DNA of 64,000 nucleotides from assembly GCF_000007705.1 (NCBI RefSeq), contig NC_005085.1, positions 3,047,752 to 3,111,751 of the forward strand, read 5' to 3'. The position numbers and the translations under genes were made by a program. Source of the DNA: Chromobacterium violaceum ATCC 12472. Lineage in GTDB: Bacteria > Pseudomonadota > Gammaproteobacteria > Burkholderiales > Chromobacteriaceae. The notes under the pieces are model-generated. The model saw nothing but the letters and a program-made list of their open reading frames with translations, made no database searches and was not told the DNA's origin. Below are positions 3,001 to 46,200 of this stretch, piece after piece (the stretch's first letter is position 1; every line of letters begins with the position of its first letter).

Positions 3001-6000
3001 TACGCCCGGCTCGACAGCTGCGAGCCGTCCGGCGCCGGCAGCGCCTTGCGGTCCAGCTTGCCGTTCGGCGTCAACGGGAAGGCCTCCAGCACCACGAAGC
3101 CGCTCGGCACCATGTACTCCGCCAGTTCCTGAGACAGCGCCGCCCGCAACGCGGCCGCCTCCAGCGTCGCGCCCGGCTGCGCCGTCAAATAGGCCACCAG
3201 CCGCTTGTCGCCCGGCGCGTCTTCCCGCGCCAGCACCACCGCTTCCTTCACCCCGGCGCAGGCCGCCAGCTTGGCCTCGATTTCACCGAGTTCGATCCGG
3301 AAACCGCGGATCTTGACCTGGAAGTCGTTGCGGCCCAGGTATTCAATGCTGCCGTCCGGCAGCCAGCGCCCCAGGTCGCCGGTCTTGTACAGCCGCGCCT
3401 GCGGATCGGCGCTGAAAGGGTCGGCGATGAAACGTTCCGCCGTCAGTTCCGGACGGTTCAGGTAGCCGCGCGCCACCCCGGCGCCGCCGATGTACAGCTC
3501 GCCCGCCACCCCGAGCGGCGCCAGTTGCCCATCGCCGTCCAGGATGTGGATCTGGATATTGGAAATCGGCTTGCCGATAGGTACAAAGCTGCTAGGTCCC
3601 GCGGCGCTGCACGGCCAGGCCGTCACATCGATCGCAGCCTCCGTCGGACCGTACAGATTGTGCAGCTCGCTGTGCGGGAAGTGTCTCAGGCATTGCGTCT
3701 GCAAGGCGTGCGGCAGCGCTTCGCCGCTGCACAGAATGCGCTTGAGCGTCGGGCAGCTGCCGCGCGGCACCAGGCTGACAAAGCTTTGCAGCATCGACGG
3801 CACGAAGTGCAGCGTGGTGATGCCGGCCGCCTCGATCAATTGCCTCAAGTAATGCGGATCCTTATGCCCTTCCGGATCGGCCATCACCAGTTGCGCCCCC
3901 GCCAGCAACGGCAGGAAGAATTCCCAGACCGAGACGTCGAAACCGAACGGCGTCTTTTGCAGCACGCGGTCAGCCGTCGTCAAACGATAGGTCTCTTGCG
4001 CCCACCAGAGTCGGTTAACCACGCCCTCGTGTTCGTTGACCACGCCCTTGGGAAGGCCGGTCGAGCCCGAGGTGTAGATCACGTACGCCGCTTTGCCGCT
4101 GTCCAGCCCCGTTACCGCCGGATTCGCCTCGCGCTGCGCCGCTTGCTTCGCTCGCTCTTCCGGCGCGTCCAGCAACAGCCGCGGCGCCGAGCCCGACAGT
4201 TTCTCCGCCAGGCTCGCTTGCGTCAGCACCACGACCGGCGCGCTGTCTTCCAGCATGTAGCTCAGCCGCTCCGCCGGATAGCTCGGGTCCAGCGGCACAT
4301 ACGCCCCGCCTGCCTTCAAGATGCCCAGCAAGCCCACCACCATGTCCAGCCCGCGCTCCAAGCAGATGCCCACCCGCGCTTCCGGCACCACGCCCAGGCC
4401 GATCAGACGATGCGCCAGCTGGTTGGCGCGCCGGTTCAATTCGCCGTAGCTCAGGCTAGCCTCGCCATGACGCAACGCTTCCGCCTCCGGCCGCGACGTC
4501 GCCTGCGCTTCGAACAAGCGATGGATCAGTTCGCCGCGCGGGTAGTCCGCCGCCGTGTCGTTGAACGTCTCCAACAGTTGCCGGCGCTCCGCCGCCGGCA
4601 GCACGTCCAGACTGCGCACCGCCTCGCCGCTGTCCGACGCCAGCGCCGCCGCCAACGACGCCAGCGCCGTCTCCATCATCGCGCACACCCGCGCCGCCCC
4701 CACGCTCGACAGCGTCTGCGCCGTCAGCGCCAAGCCGGCGCCCAGATCATCCACCGACAGCGTCAGCGGGTAATGGGTGCCATCCTGGCTGGACACAATC
4801 TCAATGCCGTCCCAAGCCGTTTCCATCACATCGTCGTCAGAGCTGCGGCGGTAGTTCAGCAAGGCGCTGAACAGAGGCTGCGGCGCCGCCACCCCGCTGC
4901 AGCGTTGCGCCAGCGCCAGCGACGCGTGTTCGTGCCGCAGCAGCGAAGTCAGCGCCTGCTGCGTCTGCTTCACCGCTTCCCGCGCCGTCGCCGCGCCGAT
5001 CTCCAGCTTCAGCGGCAGCGTGTTGATGAACAGCCCCAGCGCCCGATCCGCACCTGCGCCACCTTGCAGCCGGCCGAACAGCACCGTGCCGAACACCACT
5101 TGCGTCCGCCCCGACGCCCGCGCTAGCACCTGGCCCCAGGCCAGGTGGGCCAGGCAAGCCACGCTGACGCCCAGACGCCGCGCTTGCTGCCGCAATTGCT
5201 CCGCCAGCTCCGGCGATAAATTGAGACGCGCCTCTTCGAGATCGCCGCCCACCCCCTGATAGCCTTGCAGGCCGAACGGCAAGGTCGGCTCGTCCACCTC
5301 GCCCAGTTGCGCGCGGAAGTAGGCTTCATGCTCGGCCGCGCTCACGCCCAACCGCGCCTGCGCCACGAACTGCCGGAACGGCAGCGGTGATGGCAACGCT
5401 TCGCCTTGCCCCTGCTGTAGTTGCCGGATTTCGGACACCAACAAGGCCAAACCAACGTTGTCCATGATCAGGTGATGAACCAGCAACAGCATCCAGCACT
5501 CGCCTGCGCCGGACTCGGCGATGATCGCCTTGATCAGCGGCGCCTGGCGCACGTCGATCCGGTGGCGCCGCGGGTGGTAGCGCGCTTCCAGCTGTTGCGC
5601 CAGTGGGCCGTCCGCCGGGTCCAGCGCCACCGTCTCCACCTGCACCGGCGCCTGCCGCCACACCACCTGCACCGGCTCCGGCAGGTCTTGCCACAGCACC
5701 CCGGTGCGCAGGATGTCGTGCCGGTCCACCGCTTGCTGCACATTCGCGATGAAATGCCGCGCCTTTTCTCTGTCAGCCAAGCGAATCAAAGTCGGGACCA
5801 GATAGGCGTCGCCTTCGCCGCCCAGCAGGTGGTGGAACAGGATGCCTTCCTGCAACGGCGCCAGCGGGTAGATGTCCTGGATATTGGCCATCCCGCCCGG
5901 CACCTGCGCGGCGATCGCGTCGATCTGCGCCTGGCTCAAGGCCGTCAGCGTCACCATCTCCGGCGTGATCGCCTCGCAGCCCTCGGCCGGGATGCCGTTG

Positions 6001-9000
6001 GCCGGCGCCGCCACCAGCGCCGAGCCGCCGCTCAGGCTGGCCGCCAGCGCCGCCAGGTCGGCTGCGCCGAACAGTTGCCGGATGTCGCTGTGCAAGCCCG
6101 CTTGCCGCATCCGCTCCACCAGCGTCACCGCCAGCAGCGAATGTCCGCCCAGCTCGAAGAAGTTGTCGTGGCGGCCCACTTGCTCCACCCCCAGCAGCTC
6201 GCTCCAGATCGCCGCCAGCGCCGTCTCCGCCTCGCCTTCCGGCGCCGCGTACGCCCGGCTCGACAGCTGCGACCCGTCCGGCGCCGGCAGCGCCTTGCGG
6301 TCCAGCTTGCCGTTCGGCGTCAACGGGAAGGCCTCCAGCACCACGAAGCCGCTCGGCACCATGTACTCCGCCAGTTCCTGCGACAGCGCCGCCCGCAGCG
6401 ACGATGGCTCTAATTCAGCGCCCGGCTGCGCCGTCAGGTAGGCCACCAGCCGCTTGTCGCCCGGCGCGTCTTCCCGCGCCAGCACCACCGCCTCCTTCAC
6501 CCCGGCGCAGGCCGCCAGCTTGGCCTCGATTTCACCGAGCTCGATCCGGAAACCGCGGATCTTGACCTGGAAGTCGTTGCGGCCCAGATATTCGATGCTG
6601 CCGTCCGGCAGCCAGCGCCCCAGGTCGCCGGTCTTGTACAGCCGCGCCTGCGGATCGGCGCTATACGGGTCGGCGATGAAGCGTTCCGCCGTCAGTTCCG
6701 GACGGTTCAGGTAGCCGCGCCCCACCTGGACGCCTGCAATGTACAGCTCTCCGGTCACGCCTATGGGCACCGGTTGCAACTTGCCGTCCAGGATATACAT
6801 GCGGGTATTGGCGAACGGTTTGCCTATCGTGACATTGACGCCCTCCAGCTCCCCTGCCAATCGCGTCGCCGTGCAAGAGACCGTGGCTTCTGTCGGTCCA
6901 TAGGTATTGATCAAGCCGGTAGACTCTGGACGGATGCTTTCCCAAACCCGCACTTTTTGCGCGGATAGCGCGTCGCCGGTGACATTGACCAAGCGCACGC
7001 CTTGCAAATACTGCAAAGCCTGCAAGGGCGCATCGCTCCATTGCCCGACTAGCGTGTGCCAATGGGCGGCCGTCATATGCACGAAACTGATGCCCAGCTT
7101 GCGGTGCTCGGACAGCGGCGCGGAGCCAAACAACTCAGTCGCCAGCACCAGGCACGCGCCGGATAACAGCGCCGGAAGCATTTCTTCCAGCGAAAGGTCG
7201 AAGTTCAGCGAGTTTTGCTGCAAAACCCGATCGGATGGCGTCAATTCGAACCAGCGAATCGCATCCAATACATAATTGACCAGGCTGCGATGCTCGATCA
7301 TCACGCCCTTGGGATTGCCGGTGGAGCCGGAGGTGTAAATCACATAGGCCAGGTCGCCGGCGTTCAGATGCAGACAAGCAGGCGCGTCTGCCGACAGCGC
7401 CGACCAGGCGTCGCCCTGCCGCCCAAGATTGATCAGCCGGGTGGCGAGCTGCAAGGGTTCCAGAATGGCCTGCCCGGCGTCGTCCGCCAGGATGAGCAGG
7501 GGCTGGCTGTCTCCCAGAATGTAAGCCAGCCGGTCCGCCGGATAGGCGGTATCCAGTGGGATATAGGCGCCGCCGGCCTTCAGGATCGCCAGCAGTCCCA
7601 CCACCATGTCCAGGCTGCGTTGCGCGCACAGCGCCACGAATTCGCCGGCTTGCACGCCTTGCACGCGCAAGTGCCGGGCCAAGCGATTGGCCCGGCAATC
7701 CAACTCGCGGTAACTCAGCGTGACGCCCTTGTGCTCAAGCGCCGGCGCGTCTGGCGTGCGTGCGGCCTGGGCCTCGAATATCTGATGGATCAGGGCCTCG
7801 CGCGGAAAATCCCTGGCGGTGGCATTGAAGCCATTCAGCACTTGTTCGCGCTCGGCCGGCGACAGCAGCGGTAACTCGCCCACCGTTTGCGAGTCGTCAT
7901 CCGCAAATGCCTCCAGCAATGTGAAATAGTGCCGAATCATTTGCCGCATCAGGGCTTCATCCATTTGCGCGGTATCAAAGCGGAAAGGGCAGCGCATGCG
8001 GTCGCCGATCACCAGCACATCCAGAGTAAAAGCCACGGAGGCGTCGCCGATCAGCGGATAGGGGAAGCGCCGAAGCTCCGCGCCCCCCCAGGAAACGGCG
8101 ACTTCGTCATTCTCAGCCACCCACAGCTTGTCCAGCCCCCCCTCCATACGGGTATTCTGAAACGTCATCATGGCCTGGAAAACAGGCGACACCTCCGGAT
8201 TGCGTGCCACGCCGAGGCTTTCCAGCACTTTGGCGAAGGGATATTTTTGGTTTTCGATGCCTTGCCGAATCAGCTTTTGGGTATGGCGGATGTGTTCGCG
8301 CACGGTCAGCGCACCGTCAATCTGGCATCTCAGCGCCACCGAGTTCACGAACTCCCCGACCACGCGCCCCCATTTGCTGCGCGTTCGCCCCGGCAAACTG
8401 GAACCGATGATGATGTCGTCCAGACCGCTGTATCGATGCAATAAGATTTGATAGGCGGACAACATGATGGCGAACAAACCGCTGCCTTGCCTGTCCGCCA
8501 AATCGTTCAACCTTCTGGCCAAGGACTCGGGCACGACAGGATCGATCACTTGGCTGCCCTTGGCGCCCCTCTTGCCGACAGGAAACTGCAAAACCGGCAA
8601 TTCGCCGGATAAAACCTCTTGCCAATGCCTGCGCTGAGCCTGCGCGACTGGTCCTTCCAGCCACTTCCGCTGCCACTGGACATAGTGCGCGAAGTCTTGC
8701 GGCGGCAGCGCCTCCAGCGGCTCCCCCGCCAGCACAAAGCCCAACTCATCCAACAACACCCAATATGACCAGCCATCCACCGCCAAATGTTCGCAAAAGA
8801 TCAACATAACGGGGTCTTGGCCCGCGCGCACATACCAATAGGCCGCGAGCAAGGGCGGGCGAGACAAATCAAAAGCGCGTTCGCAATCCCGCGCCACGCG
8901 ATGCCGAAGCGCCTCGTCGCTCTCCGCGCCGACGTCCACCACCCTCACCTTGACCGAGACGTCGTCCAATATCCGATATGCCAATTCCCCCTGATCAATG

Positions 9001-34129: not shown

Positions 34130-35566
34130 TCAGGGGCTGCCCACCAGCCCGCGCGCTTCCTGCCCTGCCTGCGCCGCATCCGCGCCGAACATCGCCTGCA
34201 AGGCCAGGGATTTGATGTCGGTGACCGACAGTTCTCCGTCGCAGGCAGGCGGGCAATCGCTGATCAGCAGCGCAGCGTCGGCGGCGTCCCGCGCCAGCAG
34301 TCCATGCGATCCCTTGACGATGCCGGCGTCCAGGCCGATCACATCCATCAGGCTGCGCATGCCCAGCATCCGCTTGGCCAGCCGGCTGGCCACGGCCAGC
34401 TTGGGAAAGCGGATGTTGGGGTCGATGAACAGCTCGGCCGGGTCGTAACCGGGTTTGCGATGGATGTCCACCGTGCGCGCGAAGTCCGGCGCCCTGGCGT
34501 CGTCCAGCCAGTAGTAATAGCTGAACCAGGCGTCATCCTCGGCCAGCGCGACCAAATCCCCGGCGCGCTCGTGGTTCAACCCCAGCTCGCCGCGCGCCCG
34601 CCCCTGCCATACCCCCGCCACGCCCGGAATCGATCGCAGCACGTCCTCCACTTCGGCCATCTGGCGCGCGCCCAGCCCTGGCTGCAGATAGACATGGGCG
34701 ATCTGATGGTCCGCCACGGCAAACGCGCGGCATTGGCTGGGGTCCAGGATCTCCGCCCCCGCCTCGTGCCGCACCTGCAGCAGGCCTGCCTCGCGCAGAT
34801 GGCGGTTCAGGTGCACCGCGCGGCTGACCGGGGTGATGCCGTACTCGGACACCAGCATCACCCGGTAACCGTTTTCCCGCGCATGGGCGATCAAGTCCCC
34901 GGCCACGGCGTCGATGTCGCGCAAGGACTGCCGCACCGCCGGATGCGACAAATCCGGCCCATGCCGCTGCAGGTCGTAATCCAGGTGGGGAAGATAGCTC
35001 AGCAGCAGGCTGGGGCGGAAATCGGCGATCGCCAGCTTGCTGGCTTCCGCGATCCAGCGGCTGGAGGCGATGGAGGTGGCCGGTCCCCAGAAGTGGAACA
35101 AGGGAAACGTCCCCAGCTCCGCCGTCAGCCGGTCCCGCCATGCTGCGGGCTTGGTGTGGCAGTCGGGCAGCTTGCGGCCATCCGCCTTGTAAATGGGACG
35201 CGGCGTCGCGCCGAAATCGTGGCTGGACGCCATGTTGTACCACCAGAACAGGTTGGCGCAGCGAAAATCAGGATCGTGCCGTTTGGCCGCCTCCCACAGG
35301 CGCTCGCCGCCGACCAGCCGGTTGGACTGGCGCCAGAACCAGACCTCCGCCAGTTCCCGGAACAGCCAGCCGTTGCCGACGATGCCGTGCTGCTCCGGGG
35401 TCAGGCCCGTCAGCATGCTGGCCTGCACCGAGCAGGTGACCGCCGGCACGATGTTGCGCAAGGGCTGGACGAAGCCCTGCCGGGCGAATTCCGCCAGACG
35501 AGGCGTGAATTCGCCGATCAGGCGCGATGTCAGGCCGACGACGTTGAGCAACAGCAGCGGCTGCAT
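34130..35566 (-). CDS. eboF: EboF-like alkaline-phosphatase-superfamily protein
   Basis: 478-aa protein of the type I phosphodiesterase/nucleotide pyrophosphatase branch of the alkaline phosphatase superfamily. Features: N-terminal LLLNVVGLTSRLIGEFTPRL, nucleophile-region NIVPAVTCSVQASMLTG with Thr, the PHLDYDLQRHGPD metal site, the VSEYGITPV segment and C-terminal GSHGLL. The first metal Asp of the family appears as Asn5-6 context (LNVVG). AAGGTGGGG precedes the ATG. Members of this type accompany ebo genes in many bacteria; here it is transcribed divergently from the eboD-E-C-A-B operon, 256 nt away. No signal peptide is seen, so it is probably cytoplasmic. Substrate unknown. Confidence 0.85.
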   Translation of the reverse strand: MQPLLLLNVVGLTSRLIGEFTPRLAEFARQGFVQPLRNIVPAVTCSVQASMLTGLTPEQHGIVGNGWLFRELAEVWFWRQSNRLVGGERLWEAAKRHDPDFRCANLFWWYNMASSHDFGATPRPIYKADGRKLPDCHTKPAAWRDRLTAELGTFPLFHFWGPATSIASSRWIAEASKLAIADFRPSLLLSYLPHLDYDLQRHGPDLSHPAVRQSLRDIDAVAGDLIAHARENGYRVMLVSEYGITPVSRAVHLNRHLREAGLLQVRHEAGAEILDPSQCRAFAVADHQIAHVYLQPGLGARQMAEVEDVLRSIPGVAGVWQGRARGELGLNHERAGDLVALAEDDAWFSYYYWLDDARAPDFARTVDIHRKPGYDPAELFIDPNIRFPKLAVASRLAKRMLGMRSLMDVIGLDAGIVKGSHGLLARDAADAALLISDCPPACDGELSVTDIKSLALQAMFGADAAQAGQEARGLVGSP

Positions 35567-35822
35567 ATCCCCACCTTTCTCGCTCCGGATGGCTGGCCTG
35601 GACGCAGGGCGCTTACTCAGCCACGCTCAGCCACATTCCATATGTGAAATTAAAATACTCATGAACTCCACAATAGAATTCAAAAAACTAAATGTCATTG
35701 AAATTGTCGAGACGCTCCCCTAGAACTACAGCTGATGCCGCGTCAACCCGCACCGGCCATCTATACCGTATCGCATCGCAAAGCCGCTCAAGACCGTAGC
35801 AACCTTTTCAAGGAGCTATTGC
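35567..35822. promoter_or_regulatory. Divergent control region of the ebo/VioB-like locus
   Basis: The only AT-rich stretch in the locus, between eboF and the VioB-N-like gene. It must carry promoters for both directions. A short CACAT(5)ATGTG dyad lies near 35630-35645. AAGGAG stands 8 nt before the ATG at 35823. Confidence 0.45.
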
Positions 35823-38018
35823 ATGAGTTATCTCCAGTACCCCCGCCTGGCCTTTTCAGGCCTGTTCCAGTCCGATGTCTCCACCGTCAACAACGATCCG
35901 CGCCATTTCGACAACGCCACGTTTGAAGAGCGCTTCCAGGATCCGCGTTACCAGCCGCCCGTCCAGGAAGACGCGGGCGGGGCCAAGATTTCGATCAACA
36001 ACGGCTGGTGGAACCCTTGGGGCACCGGCATTTTCGGCCTGAAGAACTGCGTCGTGCAGTCGGCGCTCGGACCGGATGGCCAGGAATGCCTGAGCAGCGG
36101 CGAAGATGCCGCCATCGGCCTATTCGTGGGCAATGCCGACGACCAGCCTTCCGGGAAGATGGTGGACCTGGATCCGGATTGGCAGCTGGCTTCCTGTATT
36201 TACGGGCAGGTGATCACCCTGCGCGCCGCCAACGGCCAGGTGCTGATGCGCGGCCAATACGCGCCCAATCCCTTCCGCGACCTGTGGTTCAACCGGGTGG
36301 GCAATATCCACGGCGACAGCGCGGCGTCCGCCATCTGGCAGACCCAGCTCACCAATGTGGAATGGAATCTGGACAAGATCAACAGCCCGGTGCTGCAGGC
36401 CTTGAAAACCATCTGCGAGCAACAGGGCAATATCCTGTCGCTGCGGCTGACCACCTACGGCTACGACGACGCATTGGGCGAAAGCTTCTTCTCCTACGGC
36501 ATCCTGCTGGGCGCCATCGGCCCCGCCTATCAAACCGAGCCGCAGTCCTTCATCCTGGGCCGCCGCTTCATTCCGGCCAACAATCTGCTGCCGTCCACGG
36601 CTTACCAGGCGGAAGACTATTTCCCCAATGTCGGCTGGTTCAGCGCGCAAGTGGTGACGAACGAGCAGACGAAAAGCAGCACCCTGTACGTGGATCTCAG
36701 CAATGCGCTGCCGCTGGTCTACCAACCCGCCCAGCCCCGGGCGGACGGCTCGCCCAACAGGCCGGCCGGCACGCCGGAAACGACCTATGTGGCCGATATC
36801 ACCTGCGGCAGCGGCAGCGGCAATCCTGCGGCGCCCAAGGAAGGCAATAGCAAGCAGTTGTGGCAACAGCCGCTGATCATCGCCCAGCTCACTTCCGCCA
36901 CCTTGCCGACCAGCCCTTATCTGCAACCGGGACAAACCGCCCCCACCCCGATAGCCTCGCAATACCAGCCGCTGGCCACCATAGACATCAGCAATGCCAA
37001 CCTGCTCAGCCGCAGCGGCATCGTCGCGGTGCCCATCCCCGAATCCATGCTGTCCAGCATCAATGAGCTGCCCCTGGCCTTGGTGACCTCGGCCAATCCC
37101 ATTACCGGCATCGCCCTGTTGCTGTGCTGCGAAGGAAATGGCGGCTGGGAAGTGCGGGCCGATCAATTCGCGCTGCGCCTCGATCCCAATGACCCGGCGG
37201 CCAATACCGTGGATTCCGATGTCTACGTCGCCCAATACGGCGTGCCGCTGGCCAATGCGCCCGTCTCGCTGGCGCTCGAGTCCACCGGCGCTCAGGTGGA
37301 TGTGGGCGACTGCCCCACCGACACGCCGCCGGAAACCACGCCCAAGGCCGCGCCGCCGACCTTCAACGTGCCCGCGGGCCAGCTCGCTTTCGTCCCGGGC
37401 CAGGCCGGCGCCGACGCCAACGGGACGGTGCAGTACACCATCAACGCCAACACCGACGCCAACGGCATGGTGAAGTTCGCCATCAACGGCCCCCAGGCGA
37501 TGGGCTATCCGCGCTATTACATCGACGGCCAGCTGTTCAACTACAGCTACAACATCTCGCCCAGCTCCGCTAATGGCAAGCCGACGGTGCAGCAGACCTT
37601 CGATCAGTACGTGATCGTCGTCCGCTCCACCTATGTAGTGCCCAGCAAGGTCACCTGGGACGACGTGCAACCGATTCTGCAGCAATACGCCAACCTGTAC
37701 CCGGTGATGAGCCAGGGGCTGTTCGACTTCTCAAAGAAAGAGCAGGCCGACGCCAACGCCTTCATCCTCAAGTTCGTGCTGGACAAGCCGGACGACGACC
37801 CGGACCAGATGCCGGTCACCCGCGACCTGTCCAGCAGCAAGCGCCGCGCGCTGATCCAGTATTTCGACAGCGTGCTGCAGGAGCAGGGACGCCCCCCCAG
37901 CATGCTGGACATGTTCGGCAAGCGCTGCCCCACCCGGGGCGGCGGTTCGCGCGCGGACTGCCCGGAAGGCGCTGTCGGCTATGGCAAGGGCGGCAAGCCC
38001 GATTGCCCGGCCAAGTAA
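35823..38018 (+). CDS. VioB N-terminal-half-like protein
   Basis: 731 aa, no signal peptide. The start SYLQYPRLAFSGLFQ...NNDPRHFDN parallels the beginning of VioB (DFPRIHFRGW...RDPHGHID, from memory). Near the end, ANLYPVMSQGLFDFS followed by MPVTRDLSSSKRRALIQYF matches VioB segments with LVYPFMSDKVFSL and MPSTRELSAPKARLFLKYL. VioB (about 1000 aa) then continues into a ferritin-like half; here that half is encoded by the next gene, 29 nt downstream. VioB/RebD/StaD enzymes couple imines derived from aromatic amino acids, so a related oxidative coupling is a reasonable guess. The C-terminal tail is Cys/Gly-rich. It heads the ebo operon. Confidence 0.75.
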   Translation: MSYLQYPRLAFSGLFQSDVSTVNNDPRHFDNATFEERFQDPRYQPPVQEDAGGAKISINNGWWNPWGTGIFGLKNCVVQSALGPDGQECLSSGEDAAIGLFVGNADDQPSGKMVDLDPDWQLASCIYGQVITLRAANGQVLMRGQYAPNPFRDLWFNRVGNIHGDSAASAIWQTQLTNVEWNLDKINSPVLQALKTICEQQGNILSLRLTTYGYDDALGESFFSYGILLGAIGPAYQTEPQSFILGRRFIPANNLLPSTAYQAEDYFPNVGWFSAQVVTNEQTKSSTLYVDLSNALPLVYQPAQPRADGSPNRPAGTPETTYVADITCGSGSGNPAAPKEGNSKQLWQQPLIIAQLTSATLPTSPYLQPGQTAPTPIASQYQPLATIDISNANLLSRSGIVAVPIPESMLSSINELPLALVTSANPITGIALLLCCEGNGGWEVRADQFALRLDPNDPAANTVDSDVYVAQYGVPLANAPVSLALESTGAQVDVGDCPTDTPPETTPKAAPPTFNVPAGQLAFVPGQAGADANGTVQYTINANTDANGMVKFAINGPQAMGYPRYYIDGQLFNYSYNISPSSANGKPTVQQTFDQYVIVVRSTYVVPSKVTWDDVQPILQQYANLYPVMSQGLFDFSKKEQADANAFILKFVLDKPDDDPDQMPVTRDLSSSKRRALIQYFDSVLQEQGRPPSMLDMFGKRCPTRGGGSRADCPEGAVGYGKGGKPDCPAK

Positions 38019-38047
38019 CCGAGCCTCCATTCTGAAAGGGTACGAAT

Positions 38048-39259
38048 ATGCTGCGCATCAAACAGAGCATCATCAATCAGCTGCTGCAGGGCTGTGGCCT
38101 GGATGAGCTGAAAAAGGCCGTGAACACCGCGATAGCGCTCGAGTTTTCCACCATCCCGCCCTATCTGACCGGCCTGTTTTCCATCATGCCCGGCAGCAAC
38201 CAGAGGGCCTCGGCCCTGATTCAATCGGTGGTGACCGAGGAAATGCTGCACCTGACGCTGGCGTCCAACATCCTGATCGCCATCGGCGGCAATCCGGACA
38301 TCGTCGCCATCGGCCGCTCCCTGGTCTATCCGGGGCCGCTGCCGGACAAGATAGACAATGACCTGCAGGTGGGACTGGCCGCGCTGAGCAAACCTCAACT
38401 GCAAAACGTGTTCATGGCGATAGAGCGGCCGGAAACCAAGCCGGGGGAAATCCTGCCGGGCGAAGAAGTGCCGCAGCCTACGCCGGTCAACCCCGGCGAA
38501 TTCGGCTCCATCGGCCAGTTCTACCAGGCGCTGCTGATCGGCCTGACCCTGGCCAACGCCAGCAATCCGGAACTGTTCTCCAATCCCAGGCTGGACCAGC
38601 AGCTGGACATCAGCAAATGGTTCCCGCCGGTGCCGACCGCGCCGGCCCAGGGCAAGATCCGCAACCTCGACGACGCGGCGCTGGCGATCAACACCATCGT
38701 GATCCAGGGTGAAGGCATACAGACCGATGACCAGGACCGCGGCAATCTGGAAGGCCAACGCCTGGAGAGCAAGCCCAGACCCGCCCTGCTGAACGCGCGC
38801 ATCCTGCCGCGGCATCAGGGCGCCGCAGAGCGCGGCGCGTCGGCTCAGAATGTCTTTCCAGGGGACGGCGACGGCAGCTACGCGCACTATTTCAAGTTCG
38901 GCGAGATCTTCCACGGCCGCGAGCTGATGCCGGACCTCGAAGCTGTTTCAGGCTGGTCCTACAACGGCGCGCCGGTGCCGCTGGACGAGAGCCGGATCTA
39001 CAACTTCCTGCCCAACGCCGCCGTCAGCGACTACCTGCCCGGCTCATCGGCGGCAGTGGCCGCCCAACGCTTCTACGACACTTACCAGATGCTGCTGACC
39101 AGCCTGGACCAAGTGTTCAACGGCAAGCCGGCGGCCATGGACCAAGCGATGGGCCTGATGTATCAGCTGAAGCTGCAGGCGCAGCAGGTGGCGCAATGCC
39201 CGGTCGGCGGCAACGCGTCCAATCTGATGGCGGCGCCGCCGTTCATGCTGATCCGTTGA
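38048..39259 (+). CDS. Ferritin-like protein corresponding to the VioB C-terminal half
   Basis: 403-aa ferritin-like diiron-type protein. ELKKAVNTAIALEFSTIPPYL (first Glu ligand region, residues 20-40), SVVTEEMLHLTLASNILIAIGG (EExxH, about 57-78) and YFKFGEIFHGREL (third ligand region) match the VioB/Ferritin-like family (VioB has ELRKAVDLELSVMLQYLYA and IAHEEMIHYLVVNNLLMALGE, from memory). An inserted loop between helices includes repeated Pro/Glu. AAGGG precedes the ATG. Directly downstream of the VioB-N-like gene, so the two products probably form one enzyme. Followed 66 nt later by eboD. Confidence 0.8.
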   Translation: MLRIKQSIINQLLQGCGLDELKKAVNTAIALEFSTIPPYLTGLFSIMPGSNQRASALIQSVVTEEMLHLTLASNILIAIGGNPDIVAIGRSLVYPGPLPDKIDNDLQVGLAALSKPQLQNVFMAIERPETKPGEILPGEEVPQPTPVNPGEFGSIGQFYQALLIGLTLANASNPELFSNPRLDQQLDISKWFPPVPTAPAQGKIRNLDDAALAINTIVIQGEGIQTDDQDRGNLEGQRLESKPRPALLNARILPRHQGAAERGASAQNVFPGDGDGSYAHYFKFGEIFHGRELMPDLEAVSGWSYNGAPVPLDESRIYNFLPNAAVSDYLPGSSAAVAAQRFYDTYQMLLTSLDQVFNGKPAAMDQAMGLMYQLKLQAQQVAQCPVGGNASNLMAAPPFMLIR

Positions 39260-39325
39260 TCCGCCCATGGCCACGCGTTCCGGCAAGCTTGCCGAAGCGC
39301 GTGGCTTACGCACCAGGAGATGCCG

Positions 39326-40606
39326 ATGACCGGAACGGATGCTCTTCGCCCTCTCTCCAACGACAGCGGAGCAGAAACCGACGACAAGCCGGACTCGCCG
39401 CGGCAACTGCGGCTGATCCATGACTTCAGCGTGGTCCACACCCGCGACGTCTTCGCCGCCGACAATCCCGTCCTGCTTGAAACCTTGCGCCGCCGCGAAG
39501 CCGACAAGCGGCACCGGGTGGCGGTTTTCGTCGACGACGGCGTGTTGCGGGCCTGTCCGAAACTGCCGCAACGCATCCGCGGCTACGCGCAAGCGCATGC
39601 GTCCCACCTGGAGATAATCGGCGAGATCGTGCCGGTGCCGGGCGGGGAAGCCTGCAAGAACGATCCCCAGCAACTGTGGCGGCTGCTGCAGGCGCTGGCG
39701 GATCGGAATATCGACCGCCACTCCTACGCGCTGGCCATAGGCGGCGGCGCGGCGCTGGACGCCGTAGGCCTGGCCGCGTCGCTGTTCCATCGCGGCGTGC
39801 GCCACATCCGACTGCCGTCCACGGTGCTGTCCCAGGCCGACAGCGGCGTCGGGGTCAAGAACGCCATCAACTGGAACGGCCAGAAAAACCTGCTGGGCAG
39901 CTTCGCCGTGCCCTGGGCCGTCATCAACGACGCGGCGCTGATAGACGGTCTGCCCGCGCGCGAGAAGCGCGCCGGCATGGCCGAGGCGGTGAAGGTGGCG
40001 CTGATCCGCGACGCGTCATTCTTCCGTTGGCTGGAGGCCCGCGCCGACGCGCTCGCCCGCTTCGAACCCCGGGATCTGGAGCAACTGATACGACGCTCGG
40101 CGGCGCTGCACCTGCGCCAGATCACCCAAGGCGGCGACCCGTTCGAACAGGGTTCGGCGCGGCCGCTGGATTATGGCCACTGGATCGCCCACAAGCTGGA
40201 GCGGCTAAGCGGCCATGCGCTGAACCACGGCGAGGCGGTGGCCATAGGCGTCGCCTGCGACGCGCGCCACTCCGTCTTGGCCGGCCTGCTGCCGGAGGGC
40301 GGCGAAACGCGCGTCTGGCAGCTGCTGCGCGCGCTGGGCTTCGAGCTATGGCACGAGCAACTGCTGGCCAGGGACGAGCACGGCCGGCTGGCGCTGCTGC
40401 GCGGCCTGGACGAATTCCGCGAACACCTGGGCGGCGACTTGTGCGTGACCCTGCTGGCGGAGCTGGGGCGCGGCTGCGAAGTGGACAGCATCGCCGAGGA
40501 GCGGGTGATGCGCAGCATCCTCTGGCTGCAACGATGCCTCGCCTCCTCCCCGGCATCCGCGCACGCGGATACCGCCGCGGCCGCCGCCTGCGGGGCCGCG
40601 CGATGA
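39326..40606 (+). CDS. eboD: EboD, 3-dehydroquinate-synthase-like cyclase
   Basis: 426-aa protein of the AroB/2-epi-5-epi-valiolone synthase superfamily of sugar-phosphate cyclases. NAD-binding GGGAALDAVGLAASLFHRG near 135-153, LPSTVLSQADSGVGVKNAINW, metal Glu in GMAEAVKVALI and metal His residues in LDYGHWIAHKLE and LNHGEAVAIG are all present, so it may be catalytic. The start at 39326 has AGGAG at 6 nt; the ATG at 39320 abuts the site. Known ebo clusters always carry such a gene; its substrate is not established. Its stop overlaps the start of eboE by 4 bp. Confidence 0.92.
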   Translation: MTGTDALRPLSNDSGAETDDKPDSPRQLRLIHDFSVVHTRDVFAADNPVLLETLRRREADKRHRVAVFVDDGVLRACPKLPQRIRGYAQAHASHLEIIGEIVPVPGGEACKNDPQQLWRLLQALADRNIDRHSYALAIGGGAALDAVGLAASLFHRGVRHIRLPSTVLSQADSGVGVKNAINWNGQKNLLGSFAVPWAVINDAALIDGLPAREKRAGMAEAVKVALIRDASFFRWLEARADALARFEPRDLEQLIRRSAALHLRQITQGGDPFEQGSARPLDYGHWIAHKLERLSGHALNHGEAVAIGVACDARHSVLAGLLPEGGETRVWQLLRALGFELWHEQLLARDEHGRLALLRGLDEFREHLGGDLCVTLLAELGRGCEVDSIAEERVMRSILWLQRCLASSPASAHADTAAAAACGAAR

Positions 40607-41832
40607 AGCTGGCCCACCTGCCCCTGCCCGCGCACCTGTCCTATTGCACCAATATCCATGCCGGCGACAGCCTGGCCGAAGTCGAGGCCAGCCTGGACGG
40701 CTTCCTGCCGGCGATCCGCGCCCATCTGGAAGAATGGCGGGCGCTGGATTCCGCCGCGCCCTTCGGCCTGGGCCTGCGGTTGTCCGCCCAGGCGGCGGAA
40801 AGCCTGCTCGACGAAGATGCGCTGCGCGCTTTCGCCGCTCGGCTGGCGTCGCTGCGCGCCTACGTGTTCACCATCAACGCCTTTCCCTGGGGCAACTTCC
40901 ACCAGCGGCCAGTCAAACAGGCCGTGTATCAGCCGGACTGGCGCAGCAGCCGGCGCCTCGCCTATACCCTGCATTGCGCGCGGACGCTGGCCGCCTTGCT
41001 GCCCGATGGCGTCGAGGGCAGCATTTCCACCGTGCCGCTGGGCTTCGCCGCCGGGGATCGCGCAACCGCGATGGCGGACTGTCTGCCGCAACTGCGCCAG
41101 GCTGTGCTTGAGCTCAGCCTGCTGATGCGCGCGACCGGCAAGGAAATCGTCCTGGCGCTGGAGCCGGAGCCGGCCTGCCTGCTGGAGAATGCCGCCGACA
41201 CGCTGCTTTTCTTCCGGCGATATTGGTTCGCCGACGACAATCTGGCGCAGCTGGCCCGGCTGGCCGCCTGCTCGCAGCCCGAGGCGCGGCGGCTGGCGCA
41301 ACGCCACCTGGGCGTCTGCTACGACGTATGCCATGGCGCGGTGGAGTTCGAAGACCCCTGCGCCGCGCTCTCAGGCTTGCGGGACGCCGGCGTCCGCGTC
41401 GCCAAGATCCAGTTGTCCTGCGCGCTGCGCGCCGAAGCCATGGACCCGCTCGTCGCGCGCCAGCTCCAGTCCTTCGACGACGGCGTCTACCTGCACCAGG
41501 TGGTCAGGCGCGGCGCCGACGGCCTGCGCCGCCACGCCGACCTGCCGCAAGCCTTGGCCCTGCCCGCTGATGCCATCCAGGGAGAAGCATGGCGCGTGCA
41601 TTGCCATGTGCCGCTGTTCTGGCAAGCGCCGCCCGAGGCAGGCCTGGCCAGCACCCGCGACAGCCTGGACGCGGTGCTGGCTATGCTGAGCCGGCAGCCC
41701 GTCAGCGCCCATCTCGAGGTGGAAACCTATACCTGGGACGTCTTGCCGCCCCAATTGCGCGAAATCCCCAAGGCCCAAGCCATCGCGCTCGAACTGCATG
41801 CTGTCCTCAAGGAGTTGCGCCATGAGCGGTGA
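40603..41832 (+). CDS. eboE: EboE, TIM-barrel metabolite-traffic protein
   Basis: 409-aa protein of the xylose-isomerase-like TIM-barrel fold. Recognisable ebo signature segments: LSYCTNIHAGDSLAEV at the start, FTINAFPWGNFH near 88-99, ALEPEP (about 185-190), CYDVCHGAVEFED and CHVPLF. Acidic and His residues in these positions could form a metal site as in sugar isomerases. Coupled to eboD (4-bp overlap upstream) and to eboC (11-bp overlap downstream), so the three are made together. Exact activity unknown. Confidence 0.92.
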   Translation: MKLAHLPLPAHLSYCTNIHAGDSLAEVEASLDGFLPAIRAHLEEWRALDSAAPFGLGLRLSAQAAESLLDEDALRAFAARLASLRAYVFTINAFPWGNFHQRPVKQAVYQPDWRSSRRLAYTLHCARTLAALLPDGVEGSISTVPLGFAAGDRATAMADCLPQLRQAVLELSLLMRATGKEIVLALEPEPACLLENAADTLLFFRRYWFADDNLAQLARLAACSQPEARRLAQRHLGVCYDVCHGAVEFEDPCAALSGLRDAGVRVAKIQLSCALRAEAMDPLVARQLQSFDDGVYLHQVVRRGADGLRRHADLPQALALPADAIQGEAWRVHCHVPLFWQAPPEAGLASTRDSLDAVLAMLSRQPVSAHLEVETYTWDVLPPQLREIPKAQAIALELHAVLKELRHER

Positions 41833-42763
41833 AGCCGTTTCGTCGATGCCGGTCTGGCTTCGCCTGGGCCGCGTTTCCAATCTGCCCACCGTGCTCAGCA
41901 ACGCGCTGGCCGCCGCCCTGCTGGGCTCGGCATCCGGCGGTCGTCCTCTGGATGCGCAGTCGCTGGCGGCCCTGCCCGGCCTGATGCTGTCGATGTGCCT
42001 GTTCTACGTGGGAGGAATGTATCTCAACGACGCCTTCGATCGCGAGATCGACGCCCGCGAACGCCCGCAACGCCCCATCCCTTCCGGCGAGGCGCGCGCG
42101 CAAACGGTTTTCGCCTGCGGCTTCGGCATGCTGCTGGCCGGATGGCTGCTGCTGGGGCGGTACGGCAACAGCTACAGCCAGGCCTACGGCGCGCTGCTGG
42201 CCTGCTCCATCGTGCTGTACAACATTTGGCACAAGAACAATCCCTGCAGCCCGCTGCTGATGGGCGCCTGCCGCGCCCTGCTGTGCCTGTGCGTCGGCTC
42301 GGCCTTCGCCGGCGGCACGCCGCCCCTGTTATGCCTCGCCGCCGCCCTGCTGCTGGCGCACATCGTCGGCCTCAGCCACGCCGCCAAGCAGGAAAGCCTG
42401 GACCGGATCGGCGCCCTTTGGCCGCTGGCCGTGCTCGGCCTGGCGCCGTTGGCCTACGCGCTGCTGGCGCTGGCCCGGCTTGCCGCGGATGCGACGCCCC
42501 AGGCCTGGCAAGCGCTGGCGCTGACCGCCTTGCTGGCCGCCGCCCTGGCCGCCGCGCTGGCGTTCGCCGTCGCGCGCCTGCTCAAGCGCGCCGCGCCCGG
42601 CGCCGTCGGACAGGCGGTGGCGGGCATGATCGCCGCCGTCAGCCTGCTGGATGGACTGGCGCTGGCCGCCGGCCTGCCGCAACCCGCCCCCGGCGCCGTC
42701 CTCGCCTGCGCGGCGGCCTACTGCGCCACCCGCGTGCTGCAAACCTACATTCCGGGAACCTGA
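41822..42763 (+). CDS. eboC: EboC, UbiA-like membrane prenyltransferase
   Basis: 313-aa integral membrane protein with about eight to nine hydrophobic helices. The first prenyl-diphosphate motif is NDAFDREIDARERPQRPIPSG (near 63-83). The usual second Asp-rich motif is only partly kept (HAAKQESLDRIG), so transferase activity is likely but not certain. In UbiA-type enzymes a polyprenyl chain is attached to an aromatic or sugar acceptor; in this operon the cyclase EboD could provide the acceptor. The ATG lies inside the end of eboE, 11 bp overlap. Confidence 0.92.
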   Translation: MSGEAVSSMPVWLRLGRVSNLPTVLSNALAAALLGSASGGRPLDAQSLAALPGLMLSMCLFYVGGMYLNDAFDREIDARERPQRPIPSGEARAQTVFACGFGMLLAGWLLLGRYGNSYSQAYGALLACSIVLYNIWHKNNPCSPLLMGACRALLCLCVGSAFAGGTPPLLCLAAALLLAHIVGLSHAAKQESLDRIGALWPLAVLGLAPLAYALLALARLAADATPQAWQALALTALLAAALAAALAFAVARLLKRAAPGAVGQAVAGMIAAVSLLDGLALAAGLPQPAPGAVLACAAAYCATRVLQTYIPGT

Positions 42764-42765
42764 AC

Positions 42766-43734
42766 ATGCGCGACCAACATGACATTGCGGCGACGTCCCT
42801 GTCGGATCCGCTGGCTCGAGCCCCATCGCCCGACGGTGCGTGGATTGCGTGGCAATCCAGCCGGCGAGCCTGGCAGAACCTGCTGCGAAGCTGGCTGGAC
42901 GCCCGCGCCGATGGCGATTGGTACGCCCGGCAATGCCAGGACCTGGCGCACGCTACCGCGAGCGACCGTCCGTTGAATTTGCTGTTCAAGGCCATGGGCA
43001 TCGCGCCGCGCAAGCTGGGCAAACGAGACCTGGCATTGAGCGGCGCGGAGCAAAGCGCGGCCCTAGTCTTGCAGCCCGGATTCGACGCCAGCCGCTGGAG
43101 CGTGGACCAGGCGGCCCGCGTGGGCCTGGTGCTGGCCGCGGCCGGCCGCCTGCCCGACGGCGCCGCCTTCGCCGCCCTGCTCGACGAGTTGTCGAACCAG
43201 GGAGACATCCAGGAACAGATCGCCCTGTACCAGGGATTCGCCCTGTATCCGCGAGACCCGGCCCTGCTGGCGCGGGCGGGCGAGGCGGTCCGCAGCGGCA
43301 TCCGCCCTGTCTTCGCAGCCTTCGCCCTGCGCAATCCATGGCCGCAAGCCATGCTGCCGCAAGCGGCGTGGAACCAGATGCTGGTCAAAACCTTCTTCCT
43401 GGACCTGCCGCTGTGGCCGATCCAGGGGCTGGCCGGCCGCGCCGACGAGGAACTGGGCGAGATACTGTGCGACCTGGCGGCGGAGCGCGCCGCCGCCGGA
43501 CGCGGACTGAATCCGGAAATCTGGCGCCTGCTGGCGTTGTCCCCCTCCCCCCGCGGACACGCCTTGCTGCGCGAGCGCTTCGCCTCGGAGAGAGACGGCT
43601 CCATCCTGATGCCGGCCTTGCGGCTGGCGGCGCAGGAAAGCCCGCATCAGGCGGTGCGCGCGCTGGCGCTGCCCGCGCCGCCCGGAACGGCGTTCGCGGA
43701 CGAGTGGGCGGAGTTGGCCCAGTGGCGGGAATAA
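42766..43734 (+). CDS. eboA: EboA-domain protein
   Basis: 322-aa soluble, helix-rich protein with the EboA arrangement: WQNLLRSWLDA, an Arg/Lys-rich stretch (MGIAPRKLGKRDL), NPWPQAMLPQAAWNQMLVKTFFLDLPLWPIQGL (the most conserved ebo segment) and ERAAAGRGLNPEIWRLL near 240-256. No enzyme motif is seen. It starts 2 nt after the eboC stop. EboA proteins have no assigned biochemical function. Confidence 0.88.
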   Translation: MRDQHDIAATSLSDPLARAPSPDGAWIAWQSSRRAWQNLLRSWLDARADGDWYARQCQDLAHATASDRPLNLLFKAMGIAPRKLGKRDLALSGAEQSAALVLQPGFDASRWSVDQAARVGLVLAAAGRLPDGAAFAALLDELSNQGDIQEQIALYQGFALYPRDPALLARAGEAVRSGIRPVFAAFALRNPWPQAMLPQAAWNQMLVKTFFLDLPLWPIQGLAGRADEELGEILCDLAAERAAAGRGLNPEIWRLLALSPSPRGHALLRERFASERDGSILMPALRLAAQESPHQAVRALALPAPPGTAFADEWAELAQWRE

Positions 43735-43756
43735 ACACAACCAAGGGGGAAGCAAG

Positions 43757-44830
43757 ATGAGCGACATCCAGCACGCAATCGAAGAGATGTTTTCCGAACG
43801 CAGCGCGGCCTGCCCCTGCTGCGGAGCGACCCTGAGCCCGGAAATGCTGCGCGGCCTGCTGAAACAGGCCGAAAGCCTGCAAGGGGAAAAACAGGCGTTT
43901 CGCCGGCTGGCGCCGGACGCCGGCGGCATGCTGATCGACCCTCACGCGCACATGATCGCCCGCACCACCGACGACTACGAGGCGATGGCCGCCAGCGGCG
44001 TCGTCGCCGTGATCGAGCCGGCGTTCTGGCTGGGACAGGCGCGCACCAACGTGGGCAGCTTCGTCGATTACTTCTCGACCATCACCGGCTTCGAGCGCTT
44101 CCGCGCCGCGCAATTCGGCATCCGCCACTACTGCGCGATAGGCCTCAACCCGAAGGAGGCCAACAACCGCGAACTCGCCGATGCCGTGCTCGACGTCCTG
44201 CCGCGCTACCTGGGCAAGGAAGGCGTGGTGGCGCTGGGAGAAATCGGCTACGACGAACAGACCGAACTGGAAGACCGCGCCTTCCGCGCGCAAATCGAGC
44301 TGGCCCAGGAATTCGACCTGCCGATCATGATCCACACGCCGCACCGCGACAAGAAACGCGGCACCCGGCGGACCATGGACACGCTGGAAGCCTGCGGCTT
44401 CGATCCCGCGCGCTGCGTGATAGACCACAACAACGAGGAAACGGCGCAGGAGGTGCTGGACCGCGGCTATTGGTGCGCGTTCACCATCTACCCCTCCACC
44501 AAGATGGGCAACGATCGGTTGGCCGCCATCGTGGAACGCTATGGCCCGGAACGCATCATCGTGGATTCCGCCTGCGACTGGGGCGTGTCCGATCCGCTGG
44601 CGGTGGCCAAGTCGGCGCGCATCATGGCCGCCCACGGCCTGGGCGAGGCCGCGATACGGCAGGTGGTCTACCACAACGCGCTGGCGGTTTACGGCCTGAA
44701 CGGCGAAATGAGCGAGACCCACTGGCTGGAGCCCGATCCGGTGGATCAACGCACGCTGTACGGCGGCAACTCGGTGCTGCGCGGCCAAACGCCGCGCGTG
44801 GATCAAGACAACCCGGATCGCATCGTATGA
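43757..44830 (+). CDS. eboB: EboB, TatD-family metal-dependent hydrolase with N-terminal Cys extension
   Basis: 357-aa protein. Residues about 58-340 are a TatD-like amidohydrolase TIM barrel: metal-binding DPHAH (62-66), GLNPKEAN, LGEIGYDE (catalytic-site Glu), MIHTPHRDK, IDHNNEET and DSACDWG. The first 57 residues are extra and contain CPCCGATLS, a zinc-ribbon-like Cys pair; usual EboB proteins begin near the LIDPHAHM strand, as far as I know. It lies 22 nt after eboA behind an AAGGGGGAAG site. Substrate unknown; TatD relatives are nucleases or amidases. Confidence 0.9.
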   Translation: MSDIQHAIEEMFSERSAACPCCGATLSPEMLRGLLKQAESLQGEKQAFRRLAPDAGGMLIDPHAHMIARTTDDYEAMAASGVVAVIEPAFWLGQARTNVGSFVDYFSTITGFERFRAAQFGIRHYCAIGLNPKEANNRELADAVLDVLPRYLGKEGVVALGEIGYDEQTELEDRAFRAQIELAQEFDLPIMIHTPHRDKKRGTRRTMDTLEACGFDPARCVIDHNNEETAQEVLDRGYWCAFTIYPSTKMGNDRLAAIVERYGPERIIVDSACDWGVSDPLAVAKSARIMAAHGLGEAAIRQVVYHNALAVYGLNGEMSETHWLEPDPVDQRTLYGGNSVLRGQTPRVDQDNPDRIV

Positions 44831-44860
44831 GGCGCGAAGAGCCAAAGAAAGGAAAAAGGC

Positions 44861-45643
44861 ATGACGAGCAGACAAAGCGGTAATGTGAGCCTGGTCTCGC
44901 AATGGTTCATTCGCCAGGGTTGCGTCGAACAGGTGCTGGCCGCGCTGCCCGCCTATGTGCAGCAAGTCATGAAGCAGGAGCCGGGCACGCTGATCTATCT
45001 GGTCAACACCCCGCTGCCCGAAGGCGGCCCCGGCTCCGCCCTGCAATCGCTGCCTCCCGCCATCCATCCCAGCCTGCTGTTCTTCGAGGAATACGCCAGC
45101 GAAGACGCTTTCCTGGCCCATGTCAAAGGGGCGGCGTTCACGCGTTTCGTCGACGAGTACGGCCAGTGCTTCATCAGCAGCGATGGCCGTCCCTACACCA
45201 CGGTCACCTTCCTGCATCGCCAGCAGGGTTTCGTTCGAGGACAGGATGGCCAGGCCTCCCGGGCCGAGCAGCTCGGCTGCCAGAACCGGCACCCGGCGGT
45301 GATGTTCGAAATCATCGCCAGGGACCAGGACCAGTCCAAGGCGTTTTACAGCGAAGTGTTCGGCTGGCGCTACCAAAGCGGCAGCTCCGGCTTCGCCTAC
45401 GTCCACTTCCCGCCGCAATTGCGCGCCTTGCTGGGCGGCATCGGCCAGACCGTGAGCGGCGTGGCCGGCATGGAGCCTGGGCATAGCTTCTATCTGCTGG
45501 TGGAGGATCTGCAGCTTGCCATCGACCGCGCGCTGGCGGCCGGCGGCAGTCCGCACATGCCCATCACCAGCGTGGACGGCTACACTTTCGCCATGATCAA
45601 GGACCCGGAAGGCAACCCGATCGGCCTGCTGCAGGCGGTCTGA
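44861..45643 (+). CDS. ABM-VOC fusion protein
   Basis: 260-aa protein with two ferredoxin-like/betaalphabeta domains. Residues about 10-120 form an antibiotic-biosynthesis-monooxygenase (ABM) domain (VSQWFIRQGCVEQVLAALPAY, EPGTLIYLV, FFEEYASEDAFLAHVKG). Residues about 143-260 form a glyoxalase/VOC domain (AVMFEIIARDQDQSKAFYSEVFGW, MEPGHSFYLLVEDL, KDPEGNPIGLLQ). Both domain types occur in tailoring oxygenases, cyclases and resistance proteins. Preceded by AAAGGAAAAAGG and only 30 nt after eboB, it is the last gene of the locus and a candidate tailoring enzyme for the product. The fusion itself is uncommon. Confidence 0.85.
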   Translation: MTSRQSGNVSLVSQWFIRQGCVEQVLAALPAYVQQVMKQEPGTLIYLVNTPLPEGGPGSALQSLPPAIHPSLLFFEEYASEDAFLAHVKGAAFTRFVDEYGQCFISSDGRPYTTVTFLHRQQGFVRGQDGQASRAEQLGCQNRHPAVMFEIIARDQDQSKAFYSEVFGWRYQSGSSGFAYVHFPPQLRALLGGIGQTVSGVAGMEPGHSFYLLVEDLQLAIDRALAAGGSPHMPITSVDGYTFAMIKDPEGNPIGLLQAV

Positions 45644-45717: not shown

Positions 45718-46200
45718 TCATCCGCGCCCCACCGGCAGCCGGCCCGACATCTTCACTTCGCGCAGCGACAGGCTGGAGCGGATGGACGACACCCCCGGCA
45801 GTTCGCGCAGCACGTCGCGCACGAAAACGCCAAACGCTTCCAGATCCTCGGCGACCACCTGCAACAGGTAGTCGCATTCGCCGGTCAGGTTGTGGCAGGA
45901 CAATACCTCCGGGATCGCCTGTACCTGTTCCTCGAAACGCAACGGCGCGTCGCCGATGTGGCTGCCGAAGCCGACCTGCACGAAGGCGAGCACGCCGTAG
46001 CCCAGCTTCTTGCGGCTGAGCACCGCCTGATATCCTTCGATATAGCCATCGGCCTCCAGCCGCTTCAGCCGGCGCCAGCACGGCGTTTCGCTCAAGGCCA
46101 CCTGCTCGGCCAGTTTCGCATTGGACAGTCTCCCGTCCTTCTGCAACAGGGACATCAAGGCAACATCCACATCATCCAAGCCCAGTTTGGAAAGATTCAT
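45718..46200 (-). CDS. Lrp/AsnC-family regulator
   Basis: 160-aa transcription factor. N-terminal winged helix (KDGRLSNAKLAEQVALSETPCWRRLKRLEADGYIEGY, residues 20-56) and a C-terminal RAM amino-acid-binding domain (AFVQVGF, VLSCHNLTGECDYLLQVVAEDLEAFGVFV). It is divergent from a LysE-type exporter gene with 125 nt between, the classical layout of a regulator sensing an amino acid and switching on its exporter. Confidence 0.92.
   Translation of the reverse strand: MNLSKLGLDDVDVALMSLLQKDGRLSNAKLAEQVALSETPCWRRLKRLEADGYIEGYQAVLSRKKLGYGVLAFVQVGFGSHIGDAPLRFEEQVQAIPEVLSCHNLTGECDYLLQVVAEDLEAFGVFVRDVLRELPGVSSIRSSLSLREVKMSGRLPVGRG

Follow-up and report, generated by a model that had tools for sequence, protein, structure and literature searches.

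The 64,000-nucleotide stretch of Chromobacterium violaceum ATCC 12472 analyzed here (the window) is part of a genome represented by one contig of 4,751,080 bases and contains, at positions 34,130 to 45,643, an eight-gene operon on the plus strand, with eboF divergent from it on the minus strand. The operon is headed by two genes, here called the pair, that encode a 731-aa and a 403-aa protein corresponding to the two halves of the violacein biosynthesis enzyme VioB; these are followed by eboD, eboE, eboC, eboA, eboB and a gene for a fusion of ABM and VOC domains. The sequence-only reading of this DNA had given the same list and order of genes, and scans of the window for genes and domains confirmed it. 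The features, in window coordinates, are as follows.

34130..35566, minus strand: eboF, type I phosphodiesterase/nucleotide pyrophosphatase family (PF01663, E-value 7.7e-69); homologs in other ebo clusters
35567..35822, no strand: divergent intergenic region with probable promoters; promoter-like matches at 35650 (plus) and 35698 (minus), not above chance
35823..38018, plus strand: 731-aa protein, homolog of the VioB N-terminal half (hhalign to VioB; partial match to TIGR04492)
38048..39259, plus strand: 403-aa ferritin-like protein, counterpart of the VioB C-terminal part (PF12902, E-value 2.3e-48; five residues common to VioB; match to 3hl1)
39320..40606, plus strand: eboD, 3-dehydroquinate-synthase-like (NF004852, 559 bits, cut-off 333)
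40603..41832, plus strand: eboE, TIM-barrel "metabolite traffic protein" (NF035939, 412.9 bits, cut-off 250)
41822..42763 (most likely), plus strand: eboC, UbiA-like membrane protein (PF01040, E-value 2.7e-18; seven hydrophobic stretches)
42766..43734, plus strand: eboA (NF035938, 129.4 bits, cut-off 50)
43757..44830, plus strand: eboB, TatD-like metal-dependent hydrolase (PF01026, E-value 6.6e-18)
44861..45643, plus strand: ABM-VOC fusion (PF03992 and PF00903)

The intergenic gaps along the operon are, in order, 29, 60, -4, -11, 2, 22 and 30 nt; because they run from -11 to 60 nt, the original description of the genes as separated by overlaps or gaps under 70 nt was correct. The arrangement is not a chance one, since operons with the same gene order recur in two other Chromobacterium species and in Jeongeupia, with protein identities of 71-94%.

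The first two genes encode homologs of the two halves of VioB

VioB, the iminophenyl-pyruvate dimer synthase, is an oxidase that contains heme and joins two molecules of the indole-3-pyruvate imine made by VioA; RebD and StaD are its relatives. No Pfam domain was detected in the 731-aa protein, and TIGR04492, the VioB model, matched residues 618-686 only (E-value 3.1e-4), its 18.6 bits falling far short of the 1250-bit cut-off. A profile of 20 homologs of this protein, compared using hhalign, aligned to the N-terminal half of the VioB encoded in the same genome with an E-value of 3.1e-7. After removal of the row of a fused protein (see below), the E-value was 8.4e-7 against one VioB, over a shorter stretch, and 1.9e-11 against two VioBs, with profile columns 1-612 aligned to VioB 1-588. 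The controls, namely 20 shuffles, the reversed sequence, four window proteins and the C-terminal half of VioB (E-value 0.8), all gave 0.044 or worse. By these profile comparisons, a check set beforehand, the 731-aa protein is a remote homolog of the whole N-terminal half of VioB, collinear with it over its length, and belongs to the VioB superfamily, as had been read from the sequence alone. The pair falls outside the VioB equivalog family as delimited by TIGR04492: the 403-aa protein shows no match to this model, against 1922.5 bits for the VioB of the same genome. Among solved structures, phmmer found no convincing relative of the 731-aa protein (best 9kvn, E-value 0.015, residues 508-578), and the matches of VioB itself, all of them short and to leukemia inhibitory factor (best E-value 4.2e-4), were judged to be due to chance.

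The 403-aa protein contains a PF12902 domain (165.4 bits, cut-off 22.3), and the closest solved structure is 3hl1 (E-value 9.3e-9). Five of its residues, E32, E65, H68, E222 and H280, are invariant in an alignment of 10 split, two fused and two VioB rows and are putative ligands; of the two other ferritin-like paralogs of this genome in the alignment, that of 420 aa lacks one and that of 341 aa lacks four of the five. Judging from these matches, the 403-aa protein is the counterpart of the C-terminal ferritin-like part of VioB and a member of the VioB superfamily. The window system resembles VioB in the collinear N-terminal half, the ferritin-like C-terminal part and the E, E, H, E, H set, but differs from it in being encoded by two genes rather than one, in its score of 18.6 instead of at least 1250 bits, and in its linkage to ebo genes, the vio locus being located elsewhere.

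Single-gene, fused versions of the pair were also identified, one of 906 aa with PF12902 at 585-794 (locus L049) and another of 1016 aa with PF12902 at 593-807 (L082). In one Chromobacterium locus (G025), the VioB model spans both genes across a single stop (model positions 515-939, E-value 2.9e-10, below the cut-off). The fused gene of L049 (L049:3529-11550) adjoins an apparent AsnC-type regulator and genes that, by eye, we take to be those of tyrosine degradation. The two halves are adjacent in 20 of 20 split Chromobacteriaceae loci and in all eight plasmid records that contain them, and their pairwise distances correlate at 0.94, as calculated for 13 of the 17 ebo-linked loci, with four near-copies left out. 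The possibility that the pair is a broken VioB was considered and rejected because split orthologs are conserved in many genomes. Given the common residues and the collinearity with VioB, a related oxidative reaction catalyzed by a heteromer of the 731-aa and 403-aa proteins would be the simplest reading.

Relation to the violacein locus

The complete VioB of this genome (998 aa) is encoded about 0.48 Mb from the window operon, and the open reading frame (ORF) next to its gene was taken, by position, to be VioA. The window had been described as lacking homologs of VioA, C, D and E; the part of this statement that concerns VioA, the one enzyme of the four that was searched for in the window, holds, as VioA gave no match there. 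Among 61 Chromobacteriaceae genomes, VioB scored above the cut-off in 11; six of the 12 pair-bearing genomes have VioB and six lack it, and five genomes with VioB lack the pair, which supports the original view of the system as distinct from violacein. A cryptic second violacein locus was rejected as well, the pair being far below the VioB cut-off and differently distributed. About 6 kb from vioB (L062:2716-6899), a PF12902 ferritin-like gene is followed by genes for LodA-like and LodB-like (Trp_halogenase family) proteins, a possible further oxidative cluster.

The ebo proteins

Scans against Pfam and NCBIfam showed that homologs of EboA to EboF are all present together at the window locus. 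The models for EboE, the EboA domain and the EboD-type dehydroquinate synthase exceeded their NCBIfam cut-offs; the EboA subfamily model NF035937 (168.9 against 320) and the EboC equivalog model (103 against 250) remained below theirs, and EboC passed the Pfam cut-off for UbiA (PF01040). The genes eboA to eboF are common to this locus and to the ebo cluster of Nostoc, eustigmatophyte plastids and many bacteria, whereas the two VioB-like genes at the head of the operon and the ABM-VOC fusion at its end set the window operon apart. The fusion was matched only in L005, L006, L007, L038 and L039 (tblastn at 1e-6, loci longer than 6 kb) and appears, having been seen only there, to be restricted to the close relatives of this operon.

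In Nostoc, eboA, B, C, E and F are each required for transfer of the scytonemin monomer to the periplasm, the monomer staying in the cytoplasm in the five deletion mutants; the monomer is made by ScyA, B and C, not by VioB-like enzymes (PMC6282210). The likeness between the scytonemin pathway and the window system would consist in the combination of ebo genes with a metabolite derived from an aromatic amino acid, and the difference in the enzymes that make it. An export role of the ebo proteins in the window operon would be carried over, by analogy, from Nostoc.

Alternatively, the ebo genes could make a lipid or a quinone-like cofactor or modification for the VioB-like enzyme rather than export its product. 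EboC belongs to the UbiA family, EboD is a relative of dehydroquinate synthase, and a UbiA-297 protein whose gene lies in an eboA-E operon can transfer a farnesyl group to quinoline acids in vitro (PMC9235831), all consistent with such a role. The retention of the scytonemin monomer in the cytoplasm of the Nostoc deletion mutants and the many ebo clusters without a VioB-like partner nearby speak against it, however, and we consider this explanation improbable compared with export of a product.

Co-occurrence of the pair with ebo genes

Relatives of the 731-aa protein were detected in 12 of the 61 Chromobacteriaceae genomes, EboE was found in the same 12, and in each of these, one copy of the pair adjoins ebo genes. 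All 12 are among the 19 genomes searched from Chromobacterium, the genus of the window, and are therefore not independent of one another. The flanks fetched for each locus were about 10 kb or less, and absence of ebo genes here means that none were found in that stretch. In six related ebo-free loci of one clade, a gene for a berberine-bridge-type flavin adenine dinucleotide (FAD) oxidase precedes the pair in five (L042-L046, partial in L046, not in L047); this enzyme is a candidate partner oxidase.

Outside the genus, the pair occurs together with ebo genes in Jeongeupia (L007) and in a member of another family of the same order (L080). Eight plasmid records carry relatives of the pair, with an ebo neighborhood in three from Mycetohabitans and in one from Aureibacter (Bacteroidota), and with only eboB and eboD beside the pair in Gloeothece (Cyanobacteriota). 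The proposed co-occurrence was therefore recovered in all 12 pair-bearing Chromobacteriaceae genomes and in five of the eight plasmid records, in one of them partly. The wider surveys covered even samples of genomes from the order (399 genomes), the class (369) and the family of genome G607 (398). EboE was detected in 15 genomes of the class sample and the 731-aa profile in four; one EboE-bearing genome (G677) has a VioB-like match on another, small contig.

In the family of G607, 22 of the 398 genomes encode EboE. This family is taken to be Pseudomonadaceae: among 185 class genomes, G607 was the sole match to a Pseudomonas 16S primer, and the genes upstream of the ebo cluster at L131 best match P. 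aeruginosa records (73.9% over 99%). The assignment is not proved, as the 16S of G607 had no full-length match above 89.4% in the plasmid collection among the matches listed. In all 22 EboE stretches, a match to the 731-aa profile is located shortly downstream of eboF, as two ORFs in 20 and as one in two. The representatives in L131, of 793 aa and 603 aa, match the profile over most of their length (E-values 5.5e-10 and 2.7e-10). Relatives of two CxxCH neighbors of 379 and 423 aa are present in all 22 stretches and those of a 307-aa protein in 19; apparent signal peptides, with the N-termini judged by eye, suggest that these neighbor proteins are exported. None of the five L131 proteins belongs to a Pfam family, and part of L131 found no match in the phage records searched.

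The 307-aa family is represented in four of 72,556 plasmid records, each time inside a cluster with a VioB-like pair. The 20-kb Gloeothece plasmid locus (L073) encodes a split pair together with relatives of the 307-aa protein, the 793-aa type and a CxxCH protein, along with eboB and eboD, and in a tblastn search of plasmids, the 793-aa protein matched Gloeothece only. Besides Azospirillum, where the match is at 48%, the 307-aa query hits L081, Mycetohabitans, Gloeothece and five further Chromobacterium loci, these at 53-60%; the 307-aa protein was not found in the window genome, in a search made without a positive control.

These Pseudomonas-type clusters with divergent proteins resembling the N-terminal half of VioB (VioB-N-like proteins) are probably of the EDB type. 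In P. fluorescens NZI7, according to an mBio paper, the EDB cluster comprises a full ebo cluster and ORFs with signal peptides, and the strain becomes edible to Caenorhabditis elegans when eboA, eboD or eboE is interrupted. Expression of EDB in Escherichia coli is reported to have yielded indoles derived from tryptophan, of which two were moderately repellent (review PMC9655573). A full ebo cluster is described for EDB and is likewise present at the window locus; the Pseudomonas-type clusters, used as stand-ins for EDB, contain VioB-N-like proteins in 22 of 22 cases and differ from the window locus in their CxxCH proteins and, mostly, the 307-aa protein. The metabolite of the window operon had been called undescribed; this needs qualification, given that Pseudomonas-type ebo clusters with VioB-like proteins look like the EDB cluster that has been studied.

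Operon boundaries and neighboring sequence

Scans for regulatory signals produced nothing above chance: two promoters were found against 1.3 expected over the region scanned, and five terminators against 7.7 expected. A degenerate quorum-sensing-box pattern proved too permissive, with 604 matches in the window compared with a shuffle mean of 543, a count that two of 100 shuffles reached; the 200 matches listed all precede the operon. An Lrp/AsnC-type regulator is encoded at window positions 45718-46200, convergent with the 3' end of the operon; amino-acid-responsive control of the operon by this neighbor is conceivable. At window positions ~57-6500, short sequences repeat at a spacing of ~3.2 kb, which points to a modular repeat structure such as a nonribosomal peptide synthetase might have.

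A proposed oxidation and export pathway

We propose, with a probability of about one half, that the operon encodes a VioB-like oxidative enzyme that acts as a split heteromer on an amino-acid-derived intermediate and whose product is exported by the ebo proteins. The products of the first two genes would be the two halves of this enzyme and would form a cytoplasmic heteromer. Its substrate would be a reactive amino-acid-derived intermediate, most likely aromatic, for example, the imine of indole-3-pyruvate, which the heteromer would oxidize or couple, with the feeding amino acid oxidase encoded outside the operon. The ebo proteins would carry the product across the inner membrane, perhaps in a lipid-linked form via the UbiA-like EboC. 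The system would belong to a wider class that combines VioB-like proteins with ebo genes and probably includes the Pseudomonas EDB; accordingly, its product might serve as a deterrent or be associated with the cell surface.

Several observations weigh against this pathway. The domain scan recognized no amino acid oxidase in the operon. Among the 21 Chromobacteriaceae loci with the pair, 12 are beside ebo genes and nine are not, including L045, on a 7.3-kb contig, and the fused L049; elsewhere, ebo genes were missing next to the pair of L081, next to the fused gene of L082 (on a 6.5-kb contig) and in the vicinity of three of the eight plasmid pairs, those of Azospirillum, one of which has EboE far off on the same plasmid. 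Conversely, 48 plasmid records match EboE, only four of them with the pair adjacent, and in the 14 other EboE-bearing genomes of the class sample (15 stretches, some short), neither profile found a match at E-values up to 1. No ferritin-like match was detected in the fetched sequence of the Pseudomonas-type stretches. Finally, in a tree of 41 sequences with long branches and unsure joins, linkage to ebo requires seven changes at the fewest, at least four of which are forced by well-supported branches.

Because most EboE loci in the class sample and on plasmids lack the pair, the ebo genes form a module of general use, for which VioB-like proteins are just one of several kinds of partner. The changes on the tree imply that the link between the pair and ebo was gained or lost several times, and the two modules have probably recombined. 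This mobility might mean that the pair and the ebo genes are both mobile accessory genes that lie side by side without a common pathway, as would also fit the weaker correlation of distances between the pair and five ebo proteins (0.66-0.78) than among eboB, C, D, E and F (0.79-0.96) or between the halves. A mere neighborhood is, nevertheless, very unlikely, considering the tight spacing of the operon, the identical distribution of the pair and EboE, both in one set of 12 genomes out of 61 (albeit of one genus), the VioB-N-like proteins in every Pseudomonas-type cluster and the recurrence of the pair with ebo genes in three phyla. The ebo label is also clustered on the tree (none of 500 shuffles as low), with near-copies, which help any label cluster, included.

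A further explanation concerns the substrate: the pair could belong to the PF12902 class of oxidative enzymes and act on a non-aromatic compound, such as one formed by a flavin oxidase or by an oxidase of the LodA/GoxA type. In this genome, LodA- and LodB-like genes adjoin another PF12902 gene; in two of the three Mycetohabitans plasmids, LodA/GoxA and LodB-like genes lie on the upstream side of the pair, and the berberine-bridge-type oxidase precedes the pair in five of six ebo-free loci of one clade, one of these matches being partial. No such oxidase is encoded in the window operon, though, and the clues that favor an aromatic substrate, namely the apparent tyrosine-catabolism genes beside the fused gene of L049 and the origin of the EDB products from tryptophan (PMC9655573), make a non-aromatic substrate unlikely. 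Oxidation of an aromatic intermediate followed by ebo-dependent export remains the preferred reading.

Implications

Literature searches retrieved no publication that ties VioB-family proteins to ebo genes; the primary EDB papers are outside the coverage of these searches, so that novelty is unproven. We tentatively suggest that one large class of ebo clusters, found in Pseudomonadota, Bacteroidota and Cyanobacteriota, could have VioB-type oxidative enzymes, whole, split or reduced to the N-terminal half, as its usual biosynthetic partners, and that together they might form an unrecognized pathway family, including EDB and the C. violaceum operon, that makes and exports metabolites derived from tryptophan or tyrosine. 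Ebo clusters occur widely in bacteria and also in some algal plastids, and among the papers reviewed, scytonemin is the only established cargo; an enzyme that recurs as their partner and whose family has a known chemistry would tell which ebo molecules to seek. The Pfam-less proteins of the Pseudomonas-type clusters gain a kinship, which makes the question of the repellent testable. As C. violaceum ATCC 12472 is a standard laboratory strain that has a vio locus in the same genome, VioA-derived substrates and mutants are accessible.

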